A stretch of DNA of 64,000 nt from a virus. Shown here in pieces: positions 5,933-63,616 of the stretch; position 1 is the stretch's first letter, and every line of letters begins with the position of its first letter. Below the pieces are notes generated by a model, which made no database searches, was not told where the DNA came from, and saw nothing but the letters and a program-made list of their open reading frames with translations. The stretch lies in the IMG/VR virus record IMGVR_UViG_3300032046_000016, positions 16,905 through 80,904 of that record; one strand, 5' to 3'. The position numbers were made by a program, and so were the translations under genes.

Positions 5933-6310
5933 CTAACGCTTCTTGCGCTTGCCGTTGTTCTCGACGAGCGCCACATGGACCTCATGTATGCTGGCGGCAA
6001 TCTCTCGCAGGGCCGGCATCTCGGCATCGGAGTGCGCCTTCAGCGCCGCGATGAGCTCGGTATGCTGCACTTCTGTTGCCTCCAGCCTTCTCAACAGCTC
6101 GGTGATGAACGCCTCTCTGATCTCGGCCTGGCGCCTGGCCTCCGCCATCTGTTCCTTGACGAACTCCTCGAACGCCAGGCGCTGGCGTTCTGTGACGACC
6201 TGATTGTTGCGCACCACCCACGTGAACACCCCCGCGAGCACCAGGGCGGAGAGGAGCGTGCCGCCTTCCTTCAGCGCCTCGTACCCGAAATCGAGCATGA
6301 CCAATGTCAC
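5933..6310 (-). CDS. Small membrane protein with coiled coil, possible holin
   Basis: 125 residues; GTG start overlaps the upstream stop (GTGA). One membrane segment lies at about residues 18-34 (TLLSALVLAGVFTWVV). Then come long charged helices rich in E, R and Q, including FEEFVKEQMAEARRQAEIRE, and a basic tail GKRKKR. One TM helix followed by a charged coiled coil resembles BhlA/UviB-type holin-like proteins, but the place between maturation protease and scaffold is not a usual lysis position. Function is uncertain. Confidence 0.65.
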   Translation of the reverse strand: MTLVMLDFGYEALKEGGTLLSALVLAGVFTWVVRNNQVVTERQRLAFEEFVKEQMAEARRQAEIREAFITELLRRLEATEVQHTELIAALKAHSDAEMPALREIAASIHEVHVALVENNGKRKKR

Positions 6311-9630: not shown

Positions 9631-9664
9631 GACGACAAAGACCCCACCGAAAGACGGTGGGGTC
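9631..9664 (-). terminator. Intrinsic terminator/attenuator before the maturation gene
   Basis: On the minus strand GACCCCACCG and CGGTGGGGTC (9640-9664) form a perfect 10-bp stem with a 5-base loop TCTTT, followed by TTTGTCGTC and then the ATG at 9630. A stem this strong with a short U run should stop or weaken transcription coming from the early side. The 3' arm also holds the only G-rich ribosome-binding sequence, so translation may be controlled too. Confidence 0.75.
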
Positions 9665-9712
9665 TCCAAGGGACCTCTTCGTTAAGTGCTGGGGATCAGA
9701 TTCAGCGCCAGG

Positions 9713-10830: not shown

Positions 10831-10858
10831 ATGATAACACAACGACTAAGCCCGTCAA
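10831..10858 (-). promoter_or_regulatory. Promoter for the 10.8 kb block
   Basis: On the minus strand TTGACG (10853-10858), a 16-bp spacer and TATCAT (10831-10836) lie about 30 bases upstream of the 106-residue gene. They are in a 163-bp gap, next to an oppositely directed promoter. Confidence 0.6.
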
Positions 10859-10864
10859 TCGACC

Positions 10865-10892
10865 TTGACAGCACGGACAGGCGTGCTACACT
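10865..10892 (+). promoter_or_regulatory. Plus-strand promoter pointing against the head genes
   Basis: TTGACA (10865-10870), 16 bp, TACACT (10887-10892), preceded by GC as in the minus-strand promoter family. The spacer holds an inverted repeat GCACG-N6-CGTGC. No convincing plus-strand gene follows; an antisense transcript over the head morphogenesis gene is possible. Confidence 0.6.
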
Positions 10893-10966
10893 CAAGGTGC
10901 CCCTAAACAGGTGCCCTCCTGTGACGGAGCACAAGAGCGTCGGCGCCAGCCGGCGTTCTTGATGTC

Positions 10967-25658: not shown

Positions 25659-25674
25659 GTCCAGACGTCTGGAC
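25659..25674. repeat. 16-bp palindrome, copy 2 of 3
   Basis: GTCCAGACGTCTGGAC stands in the 48-bp gap before the 132-residue gene. This is the only intergenic copy, so an operator role is conceivable here. Confidence 0.7.
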
Positions 25675-27600: not shown

Positions 27601-27628
27601 ATGCTACCCGCCAATCTTTACCGGCCAA
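27601..27628 (-). promoter_or_regulatory. Promoter of the DUF932 gene
   Basis: TTGGCC (27623-27628), 16 bp, TAGCAT (27601-27606). The leader then contains GCCGGT-N5-ACCGGC, a palindrome around a TATAC, possibly an operator. Weaker -35 than the family consensus. Confidence 0.5.
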
Positions 27629-28478
27629 TCATTCTGACGGGAACGAACTCGCACTCCTCCGGCAACTTGTCATCGCGCAGCCTCAAGAGCTGCGGGTGCC
27701 GAAGGGCGCCACTGGTGGGGCTCTGGCCATACGCCTTGACCACGCCGACCTTGCCGATGTAGGAGGCGAGCTGCTCGGGCGGGCCGGTGATGCCGAGCGA
27801 GCTCACCACGACCAATCGACCGTCAACGTAGAACCCGTAGCGCAGGTTCCGGTAGCCCAGCTTCTTCCGGTCCTCGGAAGTCGGCAGGCCCTCCATGTCT
27901 ACGATCACGACGTCGAACTCCTGGGTTCGCTTCACCTTCAGCCAGTCCCAGGAGCGCTTGCCGGCCTGGTAGGTCGAGGCCCGTCGCTTGAGCATCACGC
28001 CCTCGATCCCGTTGTTCATGAGGCACTCGGCCTCGTCCAGGTCAGGCACTCCGAGTACCCGCGACGCCTGCACCAGCAGCGGCTGGTTGGCTTCCCCTAC
28101 GATCATCTCGACCACTTGCCGGCGCGTGTCGAGGGGCTGGCTCTGCAGGTCGTGGCCTCCAAGCCGCGGCACGTCGAAGACGACATACCGCAGCGCCCGG
28201 CGCCAGTCGCCGCTGGCATACGCGGACGCCTCGCCCACAGGAACCATCTCGCCGTCGAGGATGGTCCCGGCGGGCAGCACCATGGCGTCGAGCCAGGCGT
28301 GCTCGCCGGTGTGCTCCATCCCCGAGCGGGCGTATTGCCTGGGGCGGTCGGCCATCACCCACACGAGGCGAAAGCCGTCGTACTTGACCTCCATCGTCCA
28401 GCTATCGTCGCCCCAGGGAACCCGTGGCGCCTTCTCCGCCTGCTGCGCGAGCATCGGTCGGAGCGGCAGTCCTGTCAT
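27618..28478 (-). CDS. ATP-dependent DNA ligase, LigD type
   Basis: 286 residues. Ligase motifs in order: I EVKYDGFR (Lys32, adenylated), III ILDGEM (73-78), IV EGVMLKR (159-165), V WLKVKR (179-184), then an OB-fold C-terminus to 286 with YGFYVDGRLVVVSSLG. This is the size of the isolated ligase domain of bacterial LigD. ATG overlaps the Ku stop (ATGA), so the two are made together and should act in end joining. Confidence 0.9.
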   Translation of the reverse strand: MTGLPLRPMLAQQAEKAPRVPWGDDSWTMEVKYDGFRLVWVMADRPRQYARSGMEHTGEHAWLDAMVLPAGTILDGEMVPVGEASAYASGDWRRALRYVVFDVPRLGGHDLQSQPLDTRRQVVEMIVGEANQPLLVQASRVLGVPDLDEAECLMNNGIEGVMLKRRASTYQAGKRSWDWLKVKRTQEFDVVIVDMEGLPTSEDRKKLGYRNLRYGFYVDGRLVVVSSLGITGPPEQLASYIGKVGVVKAYGQSPTSGALRHPQLLRLRDDKLPEECEFVPVRMIGR

Positions 28479-29281
28479 GCGGCTTTCGCCTTCGCCTGTT
28501 GGACGCTCGCGGTCAGGACGCTCATCAGGTCGGCCTCGGCCGTCTCTTCCCGAGCAGCCACCTTGGTGGGCATCGGCTGGCCCATCAACTTGGCGTCGAT
28601 CAGGGCGGTCAGGGCCTCACGATACTCGTCCTGCAGACCGTCTATCACATCGCCGTCCTGGGACAAGGCGCCAATAAGCTGCTCGGCAAGCTGTGTCTCC
28701 GCATCGCTGACAGCCACTTGCTCGACCAGGGAATCCAGCTCCGCGACGTTCGCCGCCTCGTCCGCCCAAAAGAGCAGGGAGACGGCCAGGAGCCGGCCTG
28801 CGGGCTCCACCACGCATAGGCTTTCCTTGCCCGTGCCGAAGGCCACCTTGCCCAGGCCCAGGAGCTTCGACCGCGCCATGGCGTCTCGGAGCAGGGCGAA
28901 GGGCTTCTGGCCAGCCTTACCGTTCGCTCCGGGCACCGCGAAGTAGGTCTTCTCGCGCCGCCCGATGGGAACTGAGTCGGCAGGGACGAAGGCGGTGAGA
29001 TCGAGGCCGGCACCGCTGGCCAGCGGCAGGGCCTCCAGCTCTTCCGGCTCGAACAAGACCATCTGCTCCTTCGAGACCGGATAGCCCTTGATGATTTCCG
29101 TCTTGTCGGTGATCTCGCGGTCACAGGTCCGGCAGACCGTCGCGGAGTTTACTCGCTGGCCGCAGGGGCGGTGCACCATGTGGAACTTGGCGTCGTTATC
29201 GCGACCAGCTCCATACAGCTTCACCGGCACCGTGACCAGCCCAAACGTGATGGGCAGCGACCGCGTCGCTCTCATGGTCAT
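28475..29281 (-). CDS. ku: Ku protein
   Basis: 268 residues, a typical bacterial Ku size. RSLPITFGLVTVPVKLYGA at the start, KGYPVSKEQMVLFEPEELEAL and VPIGRREKTYFAVPGANGK in the core, and a C-terminal Lys/Ala-rich tail (VQQAKAKAA) that in bacterial Ku contacts LigD and DNA. CGQRVNS...VCRTCDREI adds Cys pairs. Ku rings bind DNA ends and recruit the ligase. The next gene is the ligase. Confidence 0.92.
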   Translation of the reverse strand: MTMRATRSLPITFGLVTVPVKLYGAGRDNDAKFHMVHRPCGQRVNSATVCRTCDREITDKTEIIKGYPVSKEQMVLFEPEELEALPLASGAGLDLTAFVPADSVPIGRREKTYFAVPGANGKAGQKPFALLRDAMARSKLLGLGKVAFGTGKESLCVVEPAGRLLAVSLLFWADEAANVAELDSLVEQVAVSDAETQLAEQLIGALSQDGDVIDGLQDEYREALTALIDAKLMGQPMPTKVAAREETAEADLMSVLTASVQQAKAKAA

Positions 29282-35980: not shown

Positions 35981-36205
35981 TCAGCCCTTGAACTGAGGCT
36001 CCGTCATGAGCGAGCCGTGGCCGGCCACTGCCTGGCAGCGGTTGGTGGCATGAAGGCCGGTCGTGTAACCGACCGGACAGGTGGGGCTCATGGCCACCGT
36101 CACCGTGAAGTCGCGGTAGCCGAGGTCTCCAAGCCGCCCGGCAATGAGCTCGGCCGCTCGCCGCTCATCGAGGACGTTGTCATTGATGACGATGGTGACT
36201 TCCAT
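35981..36205 (-). CDS. Small unknown protein
   Basis: 74 residues with an AGGAGGGCACC leader. MEVTIVINDNVLDERRAAELIAGRLGDLGYRDFTVTVAM suggests a small alpha-beta domain. Confidence 0.6.
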   Translation of the reverse strand: MEVTIVINDNVLDERRAAELIAGRLGDLGYRDFTVTVAMSPTCPVGYTTGLHATNRCQAVAGHGSLMTEPQFKG

Positions 36206-36260
36206 CAGGGTGCCCTCCTTCGGCCTGCCTCATTCAGCGCCGGTCGGCCAGCTCCGGCGG

Positions 36261-36277
36261 ACGGGCCCGCGGCCCGT
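36261..36277 (-). terminator. Stem-loop after the 61-residue gene
   Basis: ACGGGCC-CGC-GGCCCGT is a perfect 7-bp stem with a 3-base loop in a 79-bp gap. Without a T run it may be a weak terminator or an mRNA end. Confidence 0.5.
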
Positions 36278-36284
36278 TTCGGCT

Positions 36285-36867: not shown

Positions 36868-36896
36868 AGCGTAGCAGAAGACAACAATGTTGTCAA
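36868..36896 (-). promoter_or_regulatory. Promoter with palindromic operator
   Basis: TTGACA (36891-36896), 17 bp ending GC, TACGCT (36868-36873), then ATACTCA. GACAACA-T-TGTTGTC (36880-36894) is a perfect 15-bp palindrome overlapping the -35, a likely repressor site. Confidence 0.8.
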
Positions 36897-37859: not shown

Positions 37860-38882
37860 TCAGCGTCTTCTCGCGTAGAGTATGCCCGTGCCCATGACGA
37901 ACAGCGCCCCGGCAGCCAGCGCGCCGGCCAGCGCCACGTATCGGATAGCCGGCCCACTCTCCTCGGTCAGGGCGGCGCTCTCAAGGACCGGAAGCTCGGC
38001 GATTCCTCCGACGGAGCCACCGGGACTGAGGCTCCGCCAGTAGTTGAAGTTGCCGATAACGCTGCTCTCCACCCTCACTCCGCAGTTGTCGTTCGGGTAA
38101 CACGCGGCATCACCGACGCCGCGCGTGTGGACAGCAACAACGTCGGGGCTGGTGCTGGCAGCCGGGTACCAGACAGGAGAACCGCTCTGGCCGCCGGCCG
38201 TGTCGATCTCATAACTGACGATGTGGGGGCTTACATCGGTCACGAGGTCGTCGTCCCACCATTGCTGCTGCGGATGGTCCCCTGGGTATCCGCTGATCCG
38301 CGACGCTTGACCCACCGCTGCAAGATCGTCAAACCCCAGGAAACCCGAAAGCCCCGCGAAGCCACTGCCTAGGATAACGGCCCCATAGTCGTATTGGGCA
38401 TCGCCGCCCAAGACCCAGCCGGCGACGCTCCACAGCGAGTCGGTTGGCTGCACCTGCGCGCCGAAGGGTTCGGCTACACCATCCTTGCCGGGGGCCACTC
38501 GAACAGTCGCAGCCCACCCACCGAGGTCGCTGTCATACACGCAGTGACCAGCCGTCGCAACGGTCGCGGGGTAAATGAGGAACCCCGTACACTGGCATCC
38601 GCTCGCGCAAACGCTGCCGGGCTGACCCGTGATCGTCAGGTAGGCGACCCACCGCCAGGGAGCGGCTACGTTGTTACCAGCACCAATGTACGCGCGGCCG
38701 TCCGGCGGAATAACCGACTCCGGGACCGCCACCGGCTGGAGCGCAACGCGCGCGAGACTCGTACCAGGGGTTCCACCCCGAACGGGCGCAGCAGCGTCGA
38801 ACGGCTGAGCGTCGAGAGCCCCGCCGCCAGCGCCTACCAGCATGGCCACGCCAAAGGCGAGACCCACTAGGATTCTCTTCAT
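37860..38882 (-). CDS. Secreted, membrane-anchored trypsin-like serine protease
   Basis: 340 residues, AAGGAG before ATG. Signal peptide at 1-25 (MKRILVGLAFGVAMLVGAGG). The S1/V8-like triad is visible: TAGHC (His113), YDYGAVIL (Asp165) and GGQSGSPVW (Ser233). Cys pairs at CASGCQC and CYPNDNC could form disulfides. A C-terminal membrane helix (VALAGALAAGALFVMGTGIL) and RRR tail would hold it at the cell surface. Last gene of the secreted island; the target is unknown, surface proteins are the guess. Confidence 0.88.
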   Translation of the reverse strand: MKRILVGLAFGVAMLVGAGGGALDAQPFDAAAPVRGGTPGTSLARVALQPVAVPESVIPPDGRAYIGAGNNVAAPWRWVAYLTITGQPGSVCASGCQCTGFLIYPATVATAGHCVYDSDLGGWAATVRVAPGKDGVAEPFGAQVQPTDSLWSVAGWVLGGDAQYDYGAVILGSGFAGLSGFLGFDDLAAVGQASRISGYPGDHPQQQWWDDDLVTDVSPHIVSYEIDTAGGQSGSPVWYPAASTSPDVVAVHTRGVGDAACYPNDNCGVRVESSVIGNFNYWRSLSPGGSVGGIAELPVLESAALTEESGPAIRYVALAGALAAGALFVMGTGILYARRR

Positions 38883-38893
38883 AGACCAGCTCC

Positions 38894-39148
38894 TTAGGGG
38901 CCCTGCTGTGTTTCCGGTTCGGCGATGAATCCGTCAGATCGGTCAGTCGCCATGAACATCGCAAGAGCAGCAACCATCAGGATCGCGAAGACCATGATTG
39001 CGGATGCTGCCCCAGCAGTGACACCTCTACGCTTGTAGACATAGAGACCTACCAGCAGCGGTGGCACCGCCAGCAAAGCGAGGGGACCAAGGCCGATCAG
39101 ATACATTACCGCCGCCGCTGCCAGCAGACCCAGGATCAAGCCTCTCAT
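38894..39148 (-). CDS. Small membrane protein
   Basis: 84 residues with three hydrophobic stretches: GLILGLLAAAAVMYLIGLG, LALLAVPPLLVGLYVY, AIMVFAILMVAALAMFMA. Possibly three membrane passes with an acidic tail outside. It lies between two secreted proteins and may help them. Confidence 0.7.
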   Translation of the reverse strand: MRGLILGLLAAAAVMYLIGLGPLALLAVPPLLVGLYVYKRRGVTAGAASAIMVFAILMVAALAMFMATDRSDGFIAEPETQQGP

Positions 39149-39166
39149 CTCGGGATTGCCCCCTTC

Positions 39167-39862
39167 CTAGCCCCCTGTGTACCCGGTGTCACTACCGTAC
39201 TGGTTGACGGTGTGCGACACCCAGGGATGCACCTCCTGGAAGCACCAGGAGAAGCAGAGCTTGAACTTGCCCTGCTTCCACACGTAGTACTTGTACGGGT
39301 AAGACTGCCAGTACTGGACGGCGCCGATCTGCCCGGCGTACTGCCAGCCCAAGGCAACGTTAGAGGGCCACACCCACGACACTGGCGTTCCCGTGATTCT
39401 GGAGGAATTGTAGCACCAGTAGACCGAGTGATTGAACCTCCAGAGCCGTATGCCCAGCACGTTTCGCGCTTCCCGGTACCGGGTATATGTCCTGCAGTAG
39501 GTGATAGCCGACTCCTTGACCTGACTGGGGGTCGGGGTAGCTTTGACGGCGGGAGCTCTACGCCCCCAGATTGTCGGGCGCGCTAGCTCCTGGCTACTAG
39601 AACCCGACGCCTGTGCCACAGCCCTCGCTACGTCGCCCGTGAACCCCGCAGGGTTGAACCCCTCGGTCACTATCGACCCTTCGTCGTAGTAGCTGATGTT
39701 AGGATCGTCGCCACCAGGATCGACGGCCGTGGGGGTAGGCATCGGCGTCGGCGTCGTTCCGCCCCGTATGGGGTCAGTAGGGTCATAAGCCACAACCGTT
39801 CGGCCGAGCAGAACAACCCCGAGCAGAACGGCGGCGACCAAGACCACGAGCCTGGACTTCAT
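39167..39862 (-). CDS. Secreted protein of unknown fold
   Basis: 231 residues from ATG at 39862 (GGGAG 8 bases ahead; an ATG two codons earlier is too close). Signal peptide MKSRLVVLVAAVLLGVVLLG. A short Thr-Pro linker (TPTPMPTPTAV) follows, then a Trp/Tyr/Cys-rich domain (YWCYNSSRITGTPVSWVWP, FKLCFSWCFQEVHPWVSHTVNQYG). No enzyme motif seen; a binding protein is likely. Confidence 0.7.
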   Translation of the reverse strand: MKSRLVVLVAAVLLGVVLLGRTVVAYDPTDPIRGGTTPTPMPTPTAVDPGGDDPNISYYDEGSIVTEGFNPAGFTGDVARAVAQASGSSSQELARPTIWGRRAPAVKATPTPSQVKESAITYCRTYTRYREARNVLGIRLWRFNHSVYWCYNSSRITGTPVSWVWPSNVALGWQYAGQIGAVQYWQSYPYKYYVWKQGKFKLCFSWCFQEVHPWVSHTVNQYGSDTGYTGG

Positions 39863-39901
39863 ATCCATATCTCCCTTAGGAAAGGCGGGGCTACCCGGAC
39901 A

Positions 39902-39925
39902 TTATGCCATATACTTCGCCTCCTT
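39902..39925 (-). other. Two-codon minigene with strong ribosome site
   Basis: AAGGAGG (39919-39925) stands 8 bases before ATG-GCA-TAA (39902-39910) in the gap between two secreted-protein genes. It may be a decoy or control ORF, or chance. Confidence 0.35.
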
Positions 39926-39931
39926 TCTACG

Positions 39932-40531
39932 CTAGTGCGGTGGGAACGGGTTAGCGCACGTGCTGCCCATCCGTCCATACACGTACTGGAGATCGCAGAT
40001 GTCGATATCCTCGTCGCCTCCGGGCGGCTCCAGGTCATAGGCGGGGCTGTAGCACAGGAGCCCGAAGACGCACCCGAAGCGGGGCTCGATGATCTGCCAG
40101 TCCAGCACGTCGACCGAACAGTCGCCGTTCAGGTCGCCCTGCAGGTGCGTGGGCGTGGGTCTCGGCGTCGGGGAAGGCGGGGCAATCGTGGGCGTGGCGG
40201 TGGGAGTAGCGATCGCCGTGGGAGTCGCGGTAGGCGACGACGTCCACGTTGGTGAGCTAGTTGCGGTAGGTGATTTCGTCGAGGTAGGGAAGCTCGTTGC
40301 GGTGGCTGAGCTCGTGGCGGTAGGTGTCTTCGTTACCCTCGGCGTCCTCGTGGCGGTAGGCGTCCTAGTCGGTCTAGGTGTGCGCGTGGGAGTCGGGGAG
40401 CGACAGAAGCGCGGGAAGCGCTGGCAGAAGGTCGGACGCGGTGTAGGTGTCGCCCGCGGTGTAGATGCCGCCAGGACCGGCACCGCCATTGGCATGAGCG
40501 CCAGCAGCAGGATCAATACGATACGAGTCAT
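39932..40531 (-). CDS. Secreted Thr-Pro-rich protein with dockerin-like end
   Basis: 199 residues from ATG at 40531. Signal peptide MTRIVLILLLALMPMAVPVLA, then about 110 residues of TPTRTP/TATSSP-type linker. The end (GDLNGDCSVDVLDWQIIEP...DIDICDLQYVYGRMGS) has two D-x-N/D-x-D-type calcium loops of a dockerin-like module. Dockerins bind cohesins in surface complexes. First gene of the island, behind promoter 40692-40720. Confidence 0.78.
   Translation of the reverse strand: MTRIVLILLLALMPMAVPVLAASTPRATPTPRPTFCQRFPRFCRSPTPTRTPRPTRTPTATRTPRVTKTPTATSSATATSFPTSTKSPTATSSPTWTSSPTATPTAIATPTATPTIAPPSPTPRPTPTHLQGDLNGDCSVDVLDWQIIEPRFGCVFGLLCYSPAYDLEPPGGDEDIDICDLQYVYGRMGSTCANPFPPH
40141..40468 (-). repeat. 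Low-complexity Thr/Pro/Ser-coding repeat
   Basis: Irregular repeats of GTAGGxGT/GTGGGxGT-type units on the plus strand code for the TPT/TAT linker. Such tracts are prone to length change. Confidence 0.7.
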
Positions 40532-40691
40532 TCCCCCGCCCCGATGCCAAGAAGAAGGCCCCGGCAGCCTGACGCTACCGAGGCCATGCTGTAAACTCTG
40601 TGCAGCCGTTGGCCTGGTCACGCAGGCTGACGGTTAGGGCGCTCGTCGTGGTCACTTCACGGCGGGCGTCCGCCTTCTCCTTGGCAGTATC

Positions 40692-40738: not shown

Positions 40739-42829
40739 TTATCTTCGCGTCACCGATGGTCCATCGGGCCCGGCAGCCACGGTCAAGACGCGCTGGAAGC
40801 TGTCGGCCATCTCCTCGATATGCGTCACGACCAGTACCAGGTCGAAGTCGTCCTGCACCCCGCGGATAGCCTCCAGGAGGCGCTTACGGCCTTCCGTGTC
40901 CTGCGTACCGAACCCCTCGTCGATGGCGAGCAGCGGCATGGCGGCGTCGGCCCGGCGCGCCAGCAGGCGCGCCAGCGCCAGCCGGACGGCGAAGTCGACG
41001 CGGAACTTCTGCCCGCCGCTGCAATTCTCGTACGGTAGCTCGCCGGCCTCGTTCGTCGTCAGGACGTCCAGCGTCTCTATCGGCTGAGCGCCATCCTTCT
41101 TCGAGGCGCGTTGCGTCCTCAGCTCGACCCGGGCTCCCGACCACAGCCGATCCAGCAGCTCGTTCGCCATGCTCTCCAGCTCGGGCAGCGCTCGATCCAC
41201 GAGTAGCGCCTGTACCCCTCGTTTCCCGAACGCGTCGCCGAGCTCCTGATAGTCGGCCTGTTCCTCGGTCTGTGCCGCGACGCGCAGCCTCAATTGCCGG
41301 AGTTGCTCCTCCGCCTCCTGCGCCAGCCTTACCTCTGTCTCCAGCGCAGCAGCCTGGTCGCGGGCAGCCGTGTGCGCTTCCTCGCACTCCCTCTTCTTGG
41401 CATCGGCAGCGGTCAGCCGGTCCTGGAGGCTGCGCCGCGCCCCTTCCAGGTCGCCTATCGCGTCCAGTTGCTCGCGCGCGACACCCAAGATGTTGCTCGC
41501 CGCCAACAGGCCCTTGCGCAGGTCTTCGAGCAACCTCTCCAGGTCGGGAACCTTCGCCGCCGCCTCCCGGGCCGCCTTGACCTGCGCGCGCAGCTCGGGC
41601 ACCCCGGACGCCCTTCGCCGCAGGTCCTGCAGAGTGGTGACGAGCCCCTCTTTGGCGGCTATCTGCTGCTCAAGCTCAGAGACGAACTCGGCAGCCTCGA
41701 CTTCCCTATCCAGTTGCGAGCCCTGCTCAAACAGCGCCTTCGCTGCCGCCGGCGTCAGGGGCTGCAGGCAGGTCGGGCAAGGCATGTTCTCCTCGCCCTC
41801 GGCGAGCGTCGCCAGGCCCAGGTATCGCTTGGCCTGTTGCTGTTTGGCGTCAACCTCCGCCTGCCAGCGCCCGCGGGCTTCACCGTATCGTTGCCTGAGC
41901 TCAGGGAGATCACGGATCTCCTCCTCCAGAGCGGCGACCTCTTCCTCCACGTTCTCGTTCGGCTCCAGCCTGGCTTCCAGGCCGGGCAGCGCCGCCGCCT
42001 TCTCCTGGAGGTCCGCCAGCTCCTTCTTCTTCTCCTCGCGGTCTGTCTCAAACCTGTCGTACTCGTGCTGATAGACGTCCACCTGGCTGCGCAGCGCAGA
42101 CTGCTCGGCGGCCTTCGCCACCGCGTCGGCCAACTGCTGAGCGAGAGCGGACTGAGCCTCGCTCGCGGCGAGCAGCTCGTCGGCGGCCCGGGCAACCTCT
42201 TCCCTGGCGGTGAGAAGCCGGGCTCGGCAATGGCCCAGCTTGGACGCCTGCGCCTCAAGCGTCTCCTCGGCCCCCCTGGCAGCGGCCAGCTCGGTCGTCA
42301 GGTCGAGGGCGCGCCGGCGGCAGACGTCAGACAGCTCCTGGTAGCGCTCCAATCCCAGGATGGCGGCCAGGACCTCCTGCCGGTGGGCCGGCTGAGCCTG
42401 GGTGAAGACGTCGGCCTTGCCTTGGGCGAAGAACGCCGTGTTCACGAACGTGTCGTAGTCCATCCGGAGCAGGGCGCAGATGAACGCTTCCGTGCTGGCG
42501 ATGGACGCGCCGGTGAGGATCTCGCCGCCCGGTCCGAACAGGAGCAGGTAGGACCTCTTCCCGCGAACGCGGCGGCGCTCGACGCGATACTCCTTCTCCT
42601 GCGCCTTGAACGTCACCTCCACGATCATGTCCTCGGCGCCTTGCCGGATCAGCTCGTCGTCGGACCTAGAGCGCGCCTGGCCCCACAGCGCCCACGTCAG
42701 CGCCTCCAGGATGCTAGACTTCCCCGCTCCGTTCGGGCCCACCAGCGCGGCGACGTGCAGATCTCGCAGATCTACCTCGGTGTCCTGGTAAGGCAGGAAG
42801 TTACGCAGTCTCAGTGTCAGCGGTATCAT
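40739..42829 (-). CDS. sbcC: SbcC/Rad50-type SMC ATPase
   Basis: 696 residues, shorter than most SbcC (about 1000). Walker A GPNGAGKSS at 31-39; then two coiled-coil arms around a zinc hook CPTC; the C-terminal lobe has the signature SGGQKFR and Walker B LLAIDEGFG. It pairs with SbcD in the nuclease that opens DNA ends and hairpins. ATG overlaps the SbcD stop (ATGA). Confidence 0.92.
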   Translation of the reverse strand: MIPLTLRLRNFLPYQDTEVDLRDLHVAALVGPNGAGKSSILEALTWALWGQARSRSDDELIRQGAEDMIVEVTFKAQEKEYRVERRRVRGKRSYLLLFGPGGEILTGASIASTEAFICALLRMDYDTFVNTAFFAQGKADVFTQAQPAHRQEVLAAILGLERYQELSDVCRRRALDLTTELAAARGAEETLEAQASKLGHCRARLLTAREEVARAADELLAASEAQSALAQQLADAVAKAAEQSALRSQVDVYQHEYDRFETDREEKKKELADLQEKAAALPGLEARLEPNENVEEEVAALEEEIRDLPELRQRYGEARGRWQAEVDAKQQQAKRYLGLATLAEGEENMPCPTCLQPLTPAAAKALFEQGSQLDREVEAAEFVSELEQQIAAKEGLVTTLQDLRRRASGVPELRAQVKAAREAAAKVPDLERLLEDLRKGLLAASNILGVAREQLDAIGDLEGARRSLQDRLTAADAKKRECEEAHTAARDQAAALETEVRLAQEAEEQLRQLRLRVAAQTEEQADYQELGDAFGKRGVQALLVDRALPELESMANELLDRLWSGARVELRTQRASKKDGAQPIETLDVLTTNEAGELPYENCSGGQKFRVDFAVRLALARLLARRADAAMPLLAIDEGFGTQDTEGRKRLLEAIRGVQDDFDLVLVVTHIEEMADSFQRVLTVAAGPDGPSVTRR

Positions 42830-44016
42830 GGCTCTGCCATCACCGTCTCGGCCCGCCGCAGCAGGCGTTCCCGTCGTTTCGGCTCCTCGACCTTGTCAGC
42901 CAGGTATACCCGCAGGGCGTCCAGCGGCGTCATGCTTTCCACGGCCTCCTCAGTCCGACGTCGGACCTCGCCCTCGAGATCGAGCTTGATGCCCTGCACC
43001 GAGAACGCGGGCGCCAGGGCGCGCTGCAGGGCCGGCATGTCCAACTGACTGGCCACCGAGCGAGGCCCGGACACGATCACCCTCACGATGGCGTCCTCGA
43101 TGCCGGCCGTTTCGATGGCGCCCACGACGAAGACGGTAGGCATGTCGCACTCGGCCGGCACCTCAACCTTGACGGTGACGAGCCGCCGGTTCCACACCGG
43201 AAGCGGCTTCACCTGCACTTTCTGGCTGATAATATCAACCAAAAGCGCCACCTTCTCCTGGCCCTCCTCGCTGAAGTCGACGGACTGCAGGCTGCCGCTG
43301 TACCAGGCGGGCAGTGGGGCGCTCACCTGCTGGCACTCGTGTATGTGGCCTAGGGCGGCGTAGGTGACCCCGGAGAGCGCCAGGTGCAGGGCGCTGATGG
43401 CAATCTCGTCGCCGACCGACAGGAGCCTCTCGCTGCCGTAGCGGGCCCCGACGATCGGCAGGTGGCCGGCGATGATGCGGACGCCCTCACACTTCTCGGC
43501 CGCCGCCGCCATCATCGCCTTGACGATGCGCTCGGCGACGATCAGCATCGGGTCGCCACGGCCCAGGTCGCCCTCTTCCAGCCATTGGCGCGCGCTCGGC
43601 GCCGGCACACCCAGGATCTCCAACGGGCCGCTATTCGTCTCTACCCGGTACAGGCCCACTCGGTCGATGATCACAAGCGGAAGGCCGGCCGCCTTCAGCG
43701 CGTCGTAGGCGGTGTCCCTGGAGGTCAACCTCAGGGCATCGTGGTTGCCTAAGACCACGACGATCGGGATCGCTTTCTTGTCAGCCAGTCGGCGCAGCGG
43801 CTCCGCGAAGGCTCGCAGCACGATCGGGCTCGGCCGGCGCACCGCGAAGGCGTCGCCGCAGAACACGAACGCGTCAACGCCGTGCAGAACGGCGAGGTCA
43901 GTCGTCTCCTCCCAGGCGCGCACGTAGTCAGCCATGCGCAGGGAGCTGCCATCGGGGGCAAGAGGCGCGTCTGGCGCCAGGTCGAGGTGAAGGTCCGCAC
44001 AGTGCAACAGGCGCAT
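42826..44016 (-). CDS. sbcD: SbcD/Mre11-type nuclease
   Basis: 396 residues. Calcineurin-like phosphoesterase motifs: HCADLHLDL, VFCGDAF, VVLGNHDAL, IAGHLPIVGA and ALGHIHECQ, which bind two metal ions. The C-terminal third should hold the Rad50-binding cap region. With SbcC it processes double-strand ends. AGGAGGGCATC leader after a family promoter at 44042-44070. Confidence 0.92.
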   Translation of the reverse strand: MRLLHCADLHLDLAPDAPLAPDGSSLRMADYVRAWEETTDLAVLHGVDAFVFCGDAFAVRRPSPIVLRAFAEPLRRLADKKAIPIVVVLGNHDALRLTSRDTAYDALKAAGLPLVIIDRVGLYRVETNSGPLEILGVPAPSARQWLEEGDLGRGDPMLIVAERIVKAMMAAAAEKCEGVRIIAGHLPIVGARYGSERLLSVGDEIAISALHLALSGVTYAALGHIHECQQVSAPLPAWYSGSLQSVDFSEEGQEKVALLVDIISQKVQVKPLPVWNRRLVTVKVEVPAECDMPTVFVVGAIETAGIEDAIVRVIVSGPRSVASQLDMPALQRALAPAFSVQGIKLDLEGEVRRRTEEAVESMTPLDALRVYLADKVEEPKRRERLLRRAETVMAEP

Positions 44017-48898: not shown

Positions 48899-49482
48899 GA
48901 GATCGTCCAGACGTCTGGATTTTCCCCAGCCTCGAGCTCGCCGAACCATCGCTCGCCCAACGCCAGCGCCTCCGCCATGCTGCCAACCGTCACTTTGTCG
49001 AACAGGAGGCTCTTATTCCGGTAGGCGCCCACGTAGTACCCATCCGTCCGCGGCGGCGTCAGCATGGTGCAGCGCGGCTCCAAGCAGATCTCCACCTCGT
49101 CGACCGTCTTGCTCCACGGCCGCCATATCGAGTCGAGCTCATCCCGGAGGCACAGCCCCCGCCAGCCTCGACGCCAGGCACGGGAACAGGGCGAGCAGAA
49201 ACAGCGAATGGCGACCGGGCGCTCGTCGGCCACGGCGGTGCGTTTCCAGAACGTCAGCAGGAGCTGCCGGTAGGGATCAAGGGACTCGCCGCGCCGACGC
49301 GCGGCGGCCTTCATCGCCACCTCGACCCGGAACTTGCGCCAATGGCACGACCAGCAGAGCGTCTCGACGTTCTCCTCGGAGTCATCACCGCCCCAGGACC
49401 TGGGCACGAGATGGTCGATCGTCAGGTGCTCCTCGAACCCGCACAGGGCGCAGGACGCGGCCACCTTATGCTTGGCGCTCAC
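48895..49482 (-). CDS. HNH endonuclease
   Basis: 195 residues. SCALCGFEEHLTIDHLVPRSWGGDDSEENVETLCWSCH is a complete HNH/zinc core (CxxC, DH, N, CxxC). The C-terminal part has a second Cys cluster (CFCSPC). It could be a homing nuclease or part of packaging or defence. Confidence 0.85.
   Translation of the reverse strand: MSAKHKVAASCALCGFEEHLTIDHLVPRSWGGDDSEENVETLCWSCHWRKFRVEVAMKAAARRRGESLDPYRQLLLTFWKRTAVADERPVAIRCFCSPCSRAWRRGWRGLCLRDELDSIWRPWSKTVDEVEICLEPRCTMLTPPRTDGYYVGAYRNKSLLFDKVTVGSMAEALALGERWFGELEAGENPDVWTIS
48905..48920. repeat. 16-bp palindrome, copy 3 of 3
   Basis: GTCCAGACGTCTGGAT: the inner 14 bp TCCAGACGTCTGGA are a perfect palindrome, same as at 7506 and 25659. It lies at the end of the HNH gene. 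Confidence 0.65.
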
Positions 49483-49487: not shown

Positions 49488-49934
49488 TTAGACCCTTCTG
49501 CAGACGTTGTCCTCAAGGCTCGCCGCCAGCCGGATCAGCATGGCCCGCTGCCCCTCGTTCAGTCTTTCCACGGCCTTCGGGAGCGCCGCCTCCACGATAG
49601 GCATTGCTTGCTCGAGCGCCTTCTCGCCGGCGGGCAGGAGCCGCACGAGGATCGCCCGGCGGTCCTTCGGATGCCGCTCGCGGCGAGCGTACTTCTTGCC
49701 CTCCAAGCGATCGATGATGCCCGTCAGCGTCTGAGCCTGACGGACCAGATTGTGCGCCAGGTCCGTATTGCGGCAGGGGCTCGCCTCCTTCAAGAAGAGG
49801 AGCGCCTGGAACTGGGCGATCGACAAATCGAGGTCTACCATCAGCGCGCGGTCCACGACAGCGCAGACGGCGTTGAACCCACGATAGACTGCCACCCAGT
49901 TCTCCAGGGTCGTTGACTTGGTTGCTGTGGTCAT
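49488..49934 (-). CDS. MarR family transcriptional regulator
   Basis: 148 residues, the usual size. LSIAQFQALLFLKEASPCRNTDLAHNLVRQAQTLTGIIDRLEGKKYARRERHPKDRRAILVRLLPAGEK is the MarR winged helix with the typical D-x-R-wing. A dimer would bind a 15-20 bp palindrome, such as the operators at 36880 and 55669. A candidate phage repressor. Confidence 0.88.
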   Translation of the reverse strand: MTTATKSTTLENWVAVYRGFNAVCAVVDRALMVDLDLSIAQFQALLFLKEASPCRNTDLAHNLVRQAQTLTGIIDRLEGKKYARRERHPKDRRAILVRLLPAGEKALEQAMPIVEAALPKAVERLNEGQRAMLIRLAASLEDNVCRRV

Positions 49935-50218: not shown

Positions 50219-50617
50219 TCATAGATGGCGCACGGCCAGCTCAGGCAGGCGCCGGCGCACCTCCTCGGCGATCTGCACCCGATGGCACCCTACCGTGGCC
50301 TCGCAAGCGCATATCACCACTACTCTCTTGCCGTGGGCCAAGGCGTACTCAAGCATGGCCAGCTCGCGCTCGTCCCGGACGCCGCCGACCGCGTTGGCCG
50401 GGTGCCGCGCCGCCGCGAGGCCAGGCCGGTGAAGGTAGGGCGTCGCCGTCTCCTCGACGAGGCGCGCCATCGCCTCTTCCCGGAAGGGAGCCATCACCGA
50501 ATCGCGGACGAGCCGAATGTCCACGGCGGCGTCGGCCTGGGCCTCGTTCAGCATCTGCCAGACCTGGGGCGGTTGCCGGCGGCCCAGGCCCATGGTCAGG
50601 AGCTCACCACTTGACAC
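50219..50617 (-). CDS. DUF488-like protein
   Basis: 132 residues from GTG at 50617, GGAGG 7 bases ahead. PYLHRPGLAAARHPANAVGG, then LEYALAHGKRVVVICACEATVGCHRVQIAEEVRRR fits the end of DUF488 (VxLLCxEx..CHR..IA). Role unknown. The 90-bp gap upstream shows only a possible 23-codon frame. Confidence 0.75.
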   Translation of the reverse strand: MSSGELLTMGLGRRQPPQVWQMLNEAQADAAVDIRLVRDSVMAPFREEAMARLVEETATPYLHRPGLAAARHPANAVGGVRDERELAMLEYALAHGKRVVVICACEATVGCHRVQIAEEVRRRLPELAVRHL

Positions 50618-50710
50618 CGTTCAACCTCCGACTACAATCACCTCAGCCGTGCCTAACCGCACAGGCTGGATCGGACGCCGGCGTGTCGTTGGCACGGCGG
50701 CGTCGGTCTT

Positions 50711-51478: not shown

Positions 51479-52158
51479 CGACTGACCACAACGGTTCGGC
51501 CATTTCTTACCGACCGTCTCAGGCCGTAGCGCTCATAGTAGTCACCGACATCGGGCGGGCTCTGCGTGTAGCTGTGGGTCTTCGGCGCCCGCAGCAGCGC
51601 CTCGACCGGCTTGAGGTCCGCCGGATCGACGCACCAGCGATTGCGCACGACGTCGAACCTGCCCGGCAGGGTGCCGGCCTTCAGGAGCTCGCGCACTCGA
51701 TGGTACGGACAGCGATACTGCTGGGCGATCTCGGCCGCCGAGAGGAAGCCCTGATTCGCCCGCGCGCTCACGCCCAACCCCTTGCCTCCGAGCTTGGTCC
51801 GGGCGGCGCCTGTCGAACGGCCCAAGGCGCGCGCTATCGCCTTCAGCGTCATGACGCCGGCGTGCTCCAGGAGGAACGTGGTCTCTTCCTCCGTCCAGTC
51901 GAGGTTCCTCAGGCTCACGCGCGAAGCGTCGGCGCCGGCCGCTAGCCATCCACGGCCCATGGCGTGGAAGAACTCCAGCACCCGCGATGATGGCGGCCAG
52001 CTCATGCGGCCTTTCTTCAGGACGTTGTACGCCGAGTCGCAACATGGCAACCGACCATCCAGCTCGGCCATCGCCTCTCGAAGCCCTTCGAGGACGCGGT
52101 CACGCGTCCAGTAGCGCCGATTCCCAAAGGGGGAGGCTTGCCAACGTGGAGCGGTCAG
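51475..52158 (-). CDS. Myb/HTH-type DNA-binding protein with CTG start
   Basis: 227 residues. The conserved N-terminus (GNRRYWTRDRVLEGLREAMAELDG) lies upstream of the first ATG at 52071, and the only start before it is CTG at 52158, which overlaps the polymerase stop (CTGA) and follows GAGAGAGG. DWTEEETTFLLEHAGVMTLKAIARALGRSTGAARTKL is a SANT/Myb-like HTH; FLSAAEIAQQYRCPYHRVRELLKAG is a second HTH. Similar in plan to the protein at 54823-55422. Probably a regulator. Confidence 0.72.
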   Translation of the reverse strand: MTAPRWQASPFGNRRYWTRDRVLEGLREAMAELDGRLPCCDSAYNVLKKGRMSWPPSSRVLEFFHAMGRGWLAAGADASRVSLRNLDWTEEETTFLLEHAGVMTLKAIARALGRSTGAARTKLGGKGLGVSARANQGFLSAAEIAQQYRCPYHRVRELLKAGTLPGRFDVVRNRWCVDPADLKPVEALLRAPKTHSYTQSPPDVGDYYERYGLRRSVRNGRTVVVSR

Positions 52159-52709
52159 CGCTTCCTCTCTCTTTCCTCAGGCTCCAGCCATGTCATGCCG
52201 AGGGCGTCGTACACCTCGCGCTCGGTCTTGCCGGCGATCTTCACCATCCGACCAGGCGGGTCGCTGTCCTTCTCGACGCGGTAGAGCCCGTACTGGTTCA
52301 GCTTCAGCCCCAGGGCGTCGGCGTGGCAGCGTTGGGCGATGTTCAGGCGGGCCGGGCCCGTCGCGTACATCATGGCCGCGCCGAGCGATTCGGCGGGCAC
52401 CACCCACACGTCCACCTTCACCTCGAAGCCCAGGGCGTCGAGCACCACCTGGTTGTGGCGGTTGCCCTTGCCGACCTCGCGCGCACCGGTCACGGACTCC
52501 AGGAGCAGGGGCAGGTTCGCGGCGAAGTCCTCGGCAACCTCAGGCTTCGCCACCACCACGAGATCGGCGTCGCCCACATAATGGACGCCGCGTCGAATCG
52601 ACCCGCAGAGAGCGGCGCTCTCCAGCCACCTGTCTCCCAGGACGGAGATCACCATGCCGGCTCCGTAGGCGGCGACGTAGGCCGGCACCGGCTCACGGTT
52701 CGTCGTCAT
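52155..52709 (-). CDS. Family X DNA polymerase-like nucleotidyltransferase
   Basis: 184 residues, only the catalytic part of PolX. CGSIRRGVHYVGDADLVVV has the GS and metal Asp pair (Asp47, Asp49), VKVDVWVVP the third Asp (100). YATGPARLNIAQR and LKLNQYGLYR, then EREVYDALGMTWLEPEERE are the thumb motifs. The 8-kDa HhH domain is missing. With Ku and ligase it could fill gaps in end joining. ATG overlaps the next-upstream stop. Confidence 0.87.
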   Translation of the reverse strand: MTTNREPVPAYVAAYGAGMVISVLGDRWLESAALCGSIRRGVHYVGDADLVVVAKPEVAEDFAANLPLLLESVTGAREVGKGNRHNQVVLDALGFEVKVDVWVVPAESLGAAMMYATGPARLNIAQRCHADALGLKLNQYGLYRVEKDSDPPGRMVKIAGKTEREVYDALGMTWLEPEERERKR

Positions 52710-53914: not shown

Positions 53915-54830
53915 GGTCTAGCTCCTCCCTCATGGCGTCAACCGCGCGTTGGACCTTAGCCCGTTCGGTCGCTTCCTTGGCAGACATCTCCTGGTGCGCG
54001 GCCTCGTCGAACCATTCCTCCACGGCATCCCGGACGAGCTCTTCGAGGATCTCGGGCGGTAGGGCGTCAAGCTCAACGGCGGCGTCGCCGTGGGTATGGC
54101 GGAAGCCGAAGGACCGGCTGTCGCTGGCCTTCGTCGGAATCGGGGGCAGGTCATGCTCAACGACCAGCTCCGGCGTCAGGGCTACCTTCGTGATCTCGAA
54201 GTCCACGCCCACGAGCGCGAACATCTCCTCGCTAATGACCCTGAAGATGTCCTCGCCGGACGGGTCGAAGTCGCCGAAGTACAGCAGGTGGACCTCGCTA
54301 TCGAGACGGCCCTCAAGCTCCTCGTTGAACCGTTGCCCCGCCTCGACCAGGACGGTGTAGCTGGGATAGCCCTTGCACACGACCAGGTGGGCGCCATAAG
54401 GCCGGATCACGTCGCCGATGATGGCGCTCAACGCATCCTTCTCGGTCCAGACCTCGACGTAGTGCGGCTGGCCGTCGTTAGGCTTCCTGGCGTAGGACTC
54501 CCTCACCACGTCCAGGTAGTCGCTCAGGTCGGCGTAGCCTCTCGGTTTCGTGACGCTGCGGGCGCGGTCGACGAACTTGCTCGTGTCCAGGAGGTCTACC
54601 TTGCGCGCCTTCGTCAGCAGGTTCACGAGGTTCTGATAGCTCCGGGCGCTGTTCGGGATCACCAGCGCGGCCACCAGGCGATAGTAGAGCTGGCGGACGG
54701 TCATCGGCCGCGGCGAGGCTGTCAGGATCTCCCTGGCCTGGAGCAACAGCTCGAGGGATTGCAGCGTCGGCTGCCAAGAGAAGCCGTCGTACCGGCTATC
54801 GCTCGTGTAGCGTCCGCCTTCTTCAGACAT
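53901..54830 (-). CDS. Spo11/topoisomerase VI A-like protein
   Basis: 309 residues from ATG at 54830. TVRQLYYRLVAALVIPNSARSY gives a winged-helix part with an R-x-x-Y-Y motif like the catalytic tyrosine region of TopoVI-A/Spo11. The toprim follows: EVWTEKDAL (Glu) and LLYFGDFDPSGEDI (D-x-D). No TopoVI-B is present. It could cut, nick or bind DNA ends; activity unproven. Confidence 0.75.
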   Translation of the reverse strand: MSEEGGRYTSDSRYDGFSWQPTLQSLELLLQAREILTASPRPMTVRQLYYRLVAALVIPNSARSYQNLVNLLTKARKVDLLDTSKFVDRARSVTKPRGYADLSDYLDVVRESYARKPNDGQPHYVEVWTEKDALSAIIGDVIRPYGAHLVVCKGYPSYTVLVEAGQRFNEELEGRLDSEVHLLYFGDFDPSGEDIFRVISEEMFALVGVDFEITKVALTPELVVEHDLPPIPTKASDSRSFGFRHTHGDAAVELDALPPEILEELVRDAVEEWFDEAAHQEMSAKEATERAKVQRAVDAMREELDRDGA

Positions 54831-55422
54831 CGACCAGGGCCTCCAACGCAGCCGGCCTCTTCTCGTTCTTCCCATTCCGGCCGTTCAGGACGAGGTCCAG
54901 GAACCATAGCTGGTCGACCTTCCTCAGGTCGAAGGCCAGCGGGTTCTGCCGGACGAACCTCAGCGCCGCATCGTCAGAGATGTAGTAGACGTCGCGCTCC
55001 AGCTCCGTCCCGCGCATGGTCGCTTCGAGCAGGCCGGCGCGTATCCAACCCGACACCTTGTGGTCGTCAACGCCGAACGCCTGGGCCAGGGCACGGGCGG
55101 TGTAGCCCTCGTCCGTCTTGCGCAGCCCGAGCCGCTTCTTCTTCACCGCGACCGCCGTCACCGTCCGACCCATCCTGCGCGCCAAGCGCTGGATGCTGTA
55201 GCGGGAGTAGTTCGCCTCCAAGTACGCGACCTCTTCCGCGCTCCATCGCAGCTCCTTCACGCGCGCCAGCCCCAGCTCCTGCGCCCTCTTTCTCACTACC
55301 CATCGAGGCCGTCGCAGCATCCGCGTCAGGTCCGTGATCGTCTCGGTCCGGCTGTCGTACCTTGCCCGGAGCAGGGCATCCTCGTCAGGCCGCCAGTACC
55401 ATCTCTTGGCGCCCACGGTCAC
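54823..55422 (-). CDS. Myb/HTH-type DNA-binding protein
   Basis: 199 residues from GTG at 55422 (GTGA). WYWRPDEDALLRARYDSRTETITDLTRML and LRWSAEEVAYLEANYSRYSIQRLARRMGRTVTAVAVKKKRL are two SANT-like repeats; TARALAQAFGVDDHKVSGWIRAGLL is an HTH. Same plan as 51475-52158. Likely early regulator. Confidence 0.78.
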   Translation of the reverse strand: MTVGAKRWYWRPDEDALLRARYDSRTETITDLTRMLRRPRWVVRKRAQELGLARVKELRWSAEEVAYLEANYSRYSIQRLARRMGRTVTAVAVKKKRLGLRKTDEGYTARALAQAFGVDDHKVSGWIRAGLLEATMRGTELERDVYYISDDAALRFVRQNPLAFDLRKVDQLWFLDLVLNGRNGKNEKRPAALEALVDV

Positions 55423-55613
55423 TTGCCTCGCCGCAGGGCCAGCAGCTCTCGCAGGGAGTCGCGGAACTCGCGGGCCATGTCGCCGTAGACCACCTTCATG
55501 GCCTGGTACGGCTCCCGATCCCGCTTGACCCGGTACTCCTGCAGGTTGTGGTAGAGTGCTCGGCACTGGGCTTCAAGAGCGGTGACGACCTCTCTACCAG
55601 TTGCTGCGGGCAT
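55419..55613 (-). CDS. Small helical protein, first gene of the leftward early operon
   Basis: 64 residues. MPAATGREVVTALEAQCRALYHNLQEYRVKRD, all helical and charged. It starts some 45 bp behind promoter 55657-55685. No family recognised. Confidence 0.65.
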   Translation of the reverse strand: MPAATGREVVTALEAQCRALYHNLQEYRVKRDREPYQAMKVVYGDMAREFRDSLRELLALRRGK

Positions 55614-55656: not shown

Positions 55657-55685
55657 AGTGTAGCAGGTGACAACAGTGTTGTCAA
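55657..55685 (-). promoter_or_regulatory. Leftward promoter with palindromic operator
   Basis: TTGACA (55680-55685), 17 bp ending GC, TACACT (55657-55662), TTACTCATA: the best family member. GACAACA-C-TGTTGTC (55669-55683) is a perfect palindrome in the spacer. Probably the main repressed early promoter. Confidence 0.85.
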
Positions 55686-55703
55686 TGAGTTTGGCGCGCT
55701 GAG

Positions 55704-55732
55704 TTGCGCTCTGAAGTACCATCCGGTACACT
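55704..55732 (+). promoter_or_regulatory. Rightward promoter for the plus-strand genes
   Basis: TTGCGC (55704-55709), 17 bp, TACACT (55727-55732). Transcription would begin at about the ATG at 55740, giving a leaderless mRNA; indeed no ribosome site is seen. GTACC-N4-GGTAC (55716-55729) overlaps the -10 and may be its operator. Confidence 0.65.
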
Positions 55733-55739
55733 GCCGACG

Positions 55740-55937
55740 ATGCGCACTCAAAGGCCGCTGCCTGAAGGCTACGTGACCGTCCGCGAGGCGATGAAGATAC
55801 TCGGGCTCAGGTCCCGGCGCTGGGTGTACGCCCTCATCGAGAAGGGCAAGCTGACCCGGTACGTTCTGCCCATCAATGGTTTCACGGTCCTCAAGCGGGA
55901 CGAGGTGGAGAGCCTTCTTGCGGTGCGCCGGCCGTGA
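55740..55937 (+). CDS. Small HTH (excisionase/MerR-like) protein
   Basis: 65 residues from ATG at 55740. GYVTVREAMKILGLRSRRWVYALIEKGKLTRYVLPINGFTVLKRDEVESLL is the HTH_17 winged helix of excisionases and small regulators. It is one of only two phage genes on the plus strand and overlaps the methyltransferase start by 4 bases. Could be the lysogeny switch partner or a control protein of the methyltransferase. Confidence 0.82.
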   Translation: MRTQRPLPEGYVTVREAMKILGLRSRRWVYALIEKGKLTRYVLPINGFTVLKRDEVESLLAVRRP

Positions 55938-56407
55938 CGCGCTTCCGCCGTCTCTGGACCTGGCGCAAGGACGAAGAGGACTTCTACCGCCGGCTGTGCA
56001 TCGGTAGGACGCTGCACGTCTGCTGCGGCAAGAGCTTCCTGGGAGACGTCCGCCTCGACATCGAGGCCACCGGCGCCGCCATGGTGATTGGCGACTACCG
56101 CCACCTGCCCTTCGCGGACAAGAGCTTCGATACGGTCATCTGCGATCCGCCGTGGGCGAAGCGGGAGCGGCTGGACGCTGGCCTGTCCTGGATCTTCGAG
56201 CTCAGGCGGGTGGCCCGCAAGCGCATCGTGATCGTCCACAACACGGTCTTCACCATCCCGGGGACCGAGCTGCAGCGCTCTTGGGCGGTGAGGTCGAGGG
56301 GCCTTCTCTACAAGACGGTGCACGTCCACCGCGTCATCCCGTCTTTCCGCATCCACTACCCCTACCCGGGCAGCGGAACGCGGGCCCGTCTCAAAGAGCC
56401 TAAGTGA
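55934..56407 (+). CDS. DNA methyltransferase-like protein (DPPW)
   Basis: 157 residues; GTGA overlap with the HTH gene. RTLHVCCGKSFLGDVRLDIEA is a variant SAM site, YRHLPFADKSFDTVICDPPWAK gives the DPPW catalytic motif of amino-methyltransferases. No target-recognition domain, so the substrate (DNA base, RNA or small molecule) is open. With its own promoter it may be made in the lysogen. Confidence 0.8.
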   Translation: MTRFRRLWTWRKDEEDFYRRLCIGRTLHVCCGKSFLGDVRLDIEATGAAMVIGDYRHLPFADKSFDTVICDPPWAKRERLDAGLSWIFELRRVARKRIVIVHNTVFTIPGTELQRSWAVRSRGLLYKTVHVHRVIPSFRIHYPYPGSGTRARLKEPK

Positions 56408-58845: not shown

Positions 58846-59042
58846 CAGACCGCTATCCGCCGTCTCGCCTCGTGAGGCATGTGGCCCACATGCCATCGGC
58901 GGCAGAACCGACAACGGTAGGGGGACAGCCAGGCCTTCCCCTTTCGACCCAACTGGCGGGCGGCCTCTTTCGCCGCGCTCTCGCTGGTGTAGGCCATCTT
59001 GTCGCCACAGGAGAGGTACCTAACGTGGCGCTTGCTTGCCAT
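58845..59042 (-). CDS. Small zinc-binding protein
   Basis: 65 residues. VRYLSCGDKMAYTSESAAKEAARQLGRKGKAWLSPYRCRFCRRWHVGH is a compact C..C..CxxC..H protein often seen in phages, probably nucleic-acid binding. Confidence 0.72.
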   Translation of the reverse strand: MASKRHVRYLSCGDKMAYTSESAAKEAARQLGRKGKAWLSPYRCRFCRRWHVGHMPHEARRRIAV

Positions 59043-59214
59043 CCTTTTTCCCCAGGTCCTCGATAGTGGCCTCTACACCTCTGCGCAGCAGACGGGCCAG
59101 CGCCTCGGGGCGGGAGATGCTCTTCTCTATGGCGTAGTGATCAACGGCCTTCACTAGCTCGACCGGCACCCTAACGTGCAGGACACGGACACGCCCGTCG
59201 TCATTGCTTGCCAT
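59020..59214 (-). CDS. Ribbon-helix-helix protein
   Basis: 64 residues. RVLHVRVPVELVKAVDHYAIEKSISRPEALARLLRRGVEATI has the strand-helix-helix order of CopG/MetJ-like regulators. The second RHH of the phage. Confidence 0.78.
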   Translation of the reverse strand: MASNDDGRVRVLHVRVPVELVKAVDHYAIEKSISRPEALARLLRRGVEATIEDLGKKDGKQAPR

Positions 59215-63521: not shown

Positions 63522-63601
63522 AGGCGACCCCGATTTTCGCCCCGTCTCACGTGACACCCTGTCACGGTGGAGATCGAGGGTTCGAATCCCTTCGGGGTCG
63601 C
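63522..63601. repeat. 11-bp inverted repeat around the attachment site
   Basis: GGCGACCCCGA (63522-63532) and TCGGGGTCGCC (63591-63601) are perfect inverse copies. The right one is the acceptor strand of the tRNA. Between them lies CGTGACA-CCC-TGTCACG (63549-63565), a small perfect hairpin at the anticodon-loop position. Confidence 0.7.
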
Positions 63602-63602
63602 C
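63551..63602 (+). other. Attachment site: 3' half of tRNA-Asp(GTC)
   Basis: The sequence carries a tRNA anticodon arm with loop CTGTCAC (anticodon GTC), a T arm GAGGG-TTCGAAT-CCCTT, the acceptor strand CGGGGTC and GCCA. The upstream part has no D arm, so this is not a full tRNA. A phage on the left and host DNA on the right fit the downstream att junction, with the intact tRNA expected at the other prophage end, outside the window. The core probably starts in the anticodon loop. Confidence 0.8.
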
Positions 63603-63616
63603 AATAGTCAAGTGAT

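Follow-up and report, generated by a model that had tools for sequence, protein, structure and literature searches.

In the immunity region of phage lambda, PRM–cI lies opposite PR, and a weak, leaderless promoter for a regulator diverges from a strong lytic promoter bearing palindromic operators. Regulators of the MarR family also act at palindromes in divergent promoter regions. In the switch of P2 and 186, a small excisionase-type HTH protein (Cox or Apl) is encoded near the switch promoters, which stand face to face, with the HTH gene as the first lytic gene and direct repeats as the sites (PMC7498355).

The control region described here has features in common with all three. Like lambda PRM–cI, it has a weak, leaderless-type promoter for a regulator opposite a strong, operator-bearing promoter, but no CI-type HTH_3 repressor was found, each promoter carries one palindrome, the operator edge lies ~20 nt from the −35 box of the weak promoter and the second gene encodes a methyltransferase. 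It shares the small excisionase-type HTH protein with P2 and 186, whereas its promoters are back to back and divergent and its site is a palindrome. With MarR-controlled regions it has in common a 17-bp palindrome over a −35 box and spacer, and a MarR protein encoded by the phage itself. It resembles a lysogeny or early-gene control region of an ordinary type and leaves the established principles of phage switches intact. It does, however, offer a concrete and testable regulon (two operators, one candidate MarR and one candidate HTH protein) in a temperate phage without a findable CI-type repressor, and it assigns a viral mini-methyltransferase family about which little is known to a probable lysogeny operon.

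Prophage context

The window is the whole stretch of 64,000 nt that was analyzed, corresponding to positions 16905-80904 of an 80,904-base IMG/VR record. This 80.9-kb record comprises a whole prophage with host flanks, inserted in a tRNA-Asp gene: its left end carries an intact tRNA-Asp(GTC), the final 50 nt of which are repeated (48/50) near the right end of the window. Three features, two of them in the left part of the record (L002), define the insertion:

L002:106-155 and window 63555-63604: attachment sites (attL and attR), both in tRNA-Asp(GTC)
L002:594-1559: tyrosine integrase, adjoining the left attachment site
L002:1627-2763: candidate Gp3-like recombination directionality factor (RDF), beside the integrase and left attachment site

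The paired attachment sites in tRNA-Asp, together with the tyrosine integrase, support a temperate element. The Gp3-like RDF (PF18897) neighbors a tyrosine integrase and not a serine integrase (L002:594-2763), and the host gene to the right of attR has an NrpR regulatory domain at its end.

Almost all genes run leftward. Replication genes (a DnaC-like loader and an O-like initiator) occupy the right end and are followed by the control region, beyond which come, in leftward order, a topoisomerase-like protein, a HerA/terminase-like ATPase, SbcCD, ParB, Ku/ligase, portal, capsid and tail. Single-sequence searches of viral contigs with the HTH protein, methyltransferase, RuvC and portal returned no relatives, those of the topoisomerase were distant only and showed no synteny, and no relative with a syntenic region was found in these searches.

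Divergent promoters

The control region contains the following features:

55685-55657, minus strand: leftward promoter P_L, TTGACA-17-TACACT, with TG ahead of the −10 box
55419-55613, minus strand: gene for a 64-aa protein, preceded by a Shine–Dalgarno sequence and the first in the P_L transcript
54823-55566, minus strand: gene for a D5-like HTH regulator (phrog_323) near the beginning of the P_L transcript, start codon position uncertain
55704-55732, plus strand: rightward promoter P_R, TTGCGC (55704-55709), 17-nt spacer, TACACT (55727-55732)
55716-55729: GTACC-N4-GGTAC inverted repeat GTACCATCCGGTAC, over the −10 box of P_R
55740-55937, plus strand: HTH_17/excisionase-type DNA-binding protein, 65 aa, no Shine–Dalgarno sequence, probably leaderless
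55934-56407, plus strand: class I SAM methyltransferase with a DPPW motif, 157 aa, GTG start overlapping the HTH stop codon (GTGA)

Judged by its letters, P_L is a strong extended −10 promoter, ranking first among 1,619 sigma70-type candidates in a position weight matrix (PWM) scan of the window. Together with five other leftward promoters in the window, it makes up a family with the common motif TTGAC-N15-TGCTACNCT-NTACTCA; scores were 17–18 of 18 positions at 55657, 44042, 36868, 29500 and 24396 and 15 at 50998, with 14 for one in L002, and no score in shuffled genomes exceeded 14. An unrelated 133-kb viral contig contains three occurrences of this motif, which may therefore be a consensus for strong promoters common to several hosts and not specific to this phage. 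The replication genes lie upstream of P_L within the same leftward run, making P_L one of several entries to lytic transcription and not the sole one.

P_R is weak, with a PWM rank of 71, three of six matches in the −35 box and no TG, and it falls outside the leftward family. Only 18 nt separate its −35 box from that of P_L, and its −10 box is separated by 7 nt from the ATG at 55740, with the first T of TACACT 13 nt ahead of that codon. TACACT-N7-ATG without a Shine–Dalgarno sequence is the textbook leaderless arrangement. The ATG at 55740 indeed lacks a Shine–Dalgarno sequence (−3.1 kcal/mol versus a random median of −4.3 and a leftward-gene median of −7.6), and TANNNT at 5–9 nt upstream is found for ~1% of ATGs in the window. 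In leaderless bacterial genes TANNNT lies ~12 nt upstream of the start (PMC3160421), and the 55740 gene combines this spacing with the missing Shine–Dalgarno sequence; on the basis of this layout, its mRNA likely starts leaderless at the first codon.

An earlier note on this DNA had described the strongest leftward promoter, with its palindrome, back to back with P_R, and a letter-by-letter check bore out both the coordinates and the arrangement. It had also placed the P_R start point on the ATG at 55740: the coordinates and the layout without a Shine–Dalgarno sequence agree, but P_R taken alone is weak and the leaderless start is only likely. The GTACC-N4-GGTAC repeat does cover the −10 box of P_R, as had been pointed out, but its frequency is that of chance (arm-5 inverted repeats occur in 22% of random 37-nt stretches, and 0.63 matches with at most one mismatch are expected), and we rejected it as an operator.

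A palindrome at two leftward promoters

The palindrome at P_L has a second copy, which the earlier note had missed:

55668-55684: operator-like palindrome TGACAACA-G-TGTTGTCA, 17 bp with arms of 8, covering the −35 box and spacer of P_L
36879-36895: second copy AGACAACAATGTTGTCA, with one mismatch, lying over a different leftward promoter in the same register
36896-36868, minus strand: that second operator-bearing promoter, P36868, TTGACA-17-TACGCT, preceding a small SWIM-domain gene

Palindromes of this class (arms of at least 8, gap of at most 1) are found in 0.2% of 30-nt stretches, and only 0.10 one-mismatch matches to this one are expected in the window. Even with the letters of the −35 boxes excluded, the two sites agree at ~10 further positions, and this agreement is absent from the other promoters of the family. 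Because the second copy overlies another leftward promoter in matching register, the palindrome is very probably a true operator, bound by a dimeric regulator that has two or more target promoters. The combination of operator and promoter was found in only one other viral contig, belonging to an unrelated phage and setting, and a search of the literature for the operator sequence turned up nothing informative.

The transcript downstream of P36868 also contains an Rfam type II hammerhead ribozyme (36219-36284, minus strand; 41.1 bits versus a gathering score of 37) directly before the gene at 35981-36205. Its core, CTGAATGA, has one base more than the classical CUGAUGA.

The two rightward genes

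Only two rightward open reading frames in the record, 55740-55937 and 55934-56407, have the GC3>GC1>GC2 codon pattern of real genes. Codon composition thus agrees with the earlier statement that just two phage genes run in this direction.

The first product matches HTH_17 (PF12728) with 31.7 bits against a curated cut-off of 27. Its match to phrog_66 ('excisionase and transcriptional regulator') is weak, and that to the NCBI excisionase model TIGR01764 is below the cut-off of the model. A PDB match to a 'CAP repeat' was discarded as a repeat artefact in which each domain is weak, and a single-sequence search of viral contigs returned no relatives. Protomers of HTH_17/RDF-type regulators line up head to tail on direct repeats spaced by one helix turn (PMC7498355). 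Between the two promoters, direct repeats 10–11 bp apart amounted to two overlapping imperfect pairs, a result reached in 30% of shuffles, and the intergenic region therefore shows no sites of the Cox/Apl type. As its class binds direct repeats and none beyond chance occur here, the HTH protein appears a poor fit to the symmetric 17-bp palindrome. The suggestion that it binds one of the palindromes is therefore not supported, the GTACC repeat being itself at chance level.

The start–stop overlap GTGA suggests that translation of the second gene is coupled to that of the first. Its earlier reading as a methyltransferase with DPPW proved correct: the protein is of the class I SAM type, with a Rossmann-type SAM-binding region and a (D/N/S)PP(Y/F/W) motif, with Methyltransf_11 matching only below threshold. 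Together with relatives from IMG/VR contigs and from Haloferax tailed virus 1 (gp68, annotated 'RNA MTase'), it forms a small viral family. The six aligned sequences are 150–175 aa long and share G..GDVR.D and SFDTV.CDPP[WY], at 29–38% identity; unlike the gene here, the relatives have neither an HTH partner nor a divergent promoter setting. A single-sequence search of viral contigs returned no relatives, and matches in genomes were set aside as generic class I enzymes without DPP.

No target-recognition domain, such as a sequence-specific DNA methyltransferase would have, was found in the 157 aa; the six-sequence alignment contains no additional domain, and none of its proteins is long enough to accommodate one for target recognition. 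The predicted structure is weak (pLDDT 56), although its best fold matches are all class I methyltransferases; weak profile and fold matches include METTL5 (rRNA m6A) and Trm11 (tRNA). The protein is likely a nucleic-acid amino-methyltransferase, and the marking of phage DNA, proposed earlier, is possible. PADLOC returned weak matches to mad1/mad2 and MTase_II, with the mad2 match confined to residues 50-111 against positions 343-405 of a 492-position profile. Membership in the MADS defence system was rejected, as these matches span only the generic HTH and motif IV and there is no full-length Mad2.

Candidate regulators of the palindrome

MarR proteins are dimers that act on palindromes of ~17 bp. 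Besides the HTH protein and the D5-like HTH regulator encoded at the start of the P_L transcript, the phage has two further candidate regulators:

49488-49934, minus strand: MarR-family regulator (PF01047), candidate dimeric palindrome binder
59020-59214: small RHH protein, below the Pfam cut-off

The MarR protein (47.2 bits versus a curated cut-off of 24.6 for PF01047) is favored over the HTH protein as the palindrome binder because dimers of its family act on palindromes of this size. What sets the locus apart from the usual MarR arrangement is that the MarR gene lies ~6 kb away and that no copy of the operator was found at its own start. Transfer of operators from MarR homologs of plasmids and phages was abandoned, as these are too distant (at most ~36% identity).

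The record contains no LexA-type protein that we could find and no CI-type HTH_3 protein above the cut-off, the sole sub-threshold HTH_3 match lying inside ParB. Symmetric operators over a lytic promoter and repeated in the phage, as in lambda-like CI immunity, are present in two copies over promoters, but the CI-type repressor of such a system is not found.

Model and alternatives

The region is a real divergent regulatory region and probably part of lysogeny or early control, although it could equally represent early/middle control with a cargo pair on the opposite strand. The earlier note had read it as a lysis–lysogeny or early/late switch; the temperate element, the back-to-back and leaderless layout and the strong, operator-bearing P_L fit lysogeny or early control, whereas the HTH protein as palindrome binder is not supported. 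Our preferred reading, to which we give about an even chance, is a divergent control region of a temperate tailed phage that combines an operator-repressed P_L/P36868 regulon with a low-level leaderless P_R unit. P_L would drive the leftward early/middle genes (the 64-aa protein, the D5-like HTH regulator, the topoisomerase-like protein and onward), and a dimeric regulator on the 17-bp palindrome, across the −35 box and spacer, would switch it off. The same regulator would control P36868, placing two transcription units in one regulon. With the operators occupied, P_L and P36868 would be off while P_R, ~20 nt from the operator edge, could still fire, giving a leaderless mRNA for the HTH_17 protein and a translationally coupled mini-methyltransferase. 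We infer that both proteins would be made at a low level in the lysogen, and the unit would be most useful when P_L is silent.

In a less likely reading, the HTH–methyltransferase pair is instead cargo (moron-like) or an anti-restriction module, transcribed from a weak promoter of its own and uninvolved in the switch. Its opposite strand, its weak non-family promoter, the occurrence of the methyltransferase family in other viruses without an HTH partner and the weak PADLOC matches (mad1/mad2, MTase_II) are consistent with this, but the pair directly adjoins, in divergent orientation, the promoter that is strongest and bears the operator, with 18 nt between the −35 boxes.

It is rather unlikely that the role of repressor falls to the HTH_17 protein, which would be expressed from leaderless P_R as CI is from lambda PRM, bind the P_L palindrome and silence the lysogen. 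The adjacent divergent position, the leaderless layout, the HTH_17 domain and the lack of an above-cut-off HTH_3 repressor or LexA in the record would suit such a role; a 65-aa protein without a visible dimerization part, the direct repeats used by its class (PMC7498355), none above chance here, and the MarR-family regulator encoded by the same phage argue against it.

An unlikely alternative makes the HTH protein a dual factor like Cox, Apl or Xis, acting in excision and modulating the switch without binding the palindrome. Although the weak phrog_66 and TIGR01764 matches and the tyrosine integrase point in this direction, a Gp3-like RDF candidate already lies beside the integrase, P2-like RDF genes open the lytic operon, flanked by promoters that face each other (PMC7498355), and do not stand alone on a divergent unit, and direct-repeat sites were not found in the intergenic region.

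The palindrome could also be the site of a host regulator, such as an SOS or stress repressor, through which the prophage would sense its host in place of its own repressor. We consider this improbable: no LexA or CI-type protein was found in the phage and no direct evidence ties a phage regulator to the palindrome, but the promoter–palindrome combination recurs in just one other viral contig, in an unrelated setting. Finally, it is very improbable that the leaderless promoter of the lysogen supplies a monomeric excisionase-like HTH protein and a mini-methyltransferase without a target domain that jointly modify or silence phage DNA or RNA, replacing a CI-type repressor.

Other features of the element

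Several observations concern the rest of the window. Genes for Ku, an ATP-dependent ligase, a PolX-type polymerase and SbcCD-like proteins (27618-29281, 52155-52709 and 40739-44016) possibly form a phage end-joining set. A block of lower GC content (37860-40621) encodes a trypsin-like protease that is secreted and has a C-terminal membrane anchor, as well as secreted proteins rich in threonine and proline; these are possible lysogenic conversion genes. Separate parts of a 1120-aa protein (6307-9669, minus strand) match a methyltransferase, an ATP-dependent ligase and a head maturation protease family. The 16-bp palindrome GTCCAGACGTCTGGAC occurs three times (7506-7521, 25659-25674 and 48905-48920, one copy with one mismatch; 0.05 expected) and is possibly a site of the phage ParB or of another regulator.

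A further divergent pair of strong promoters lies at 10836-10962. Downstream of its rightward member (TTGACA-16-TACACT at 10865) comes a short stretch with no clear gene; this stretch contains an inverted repeat and possibly encodes a small RNA. The second-best promoter in the window, TTGACA-16-TACAAT at 50611-50638 on the plus strand, faces rightward against leftward genes and is a possible source of an antisense transcript.
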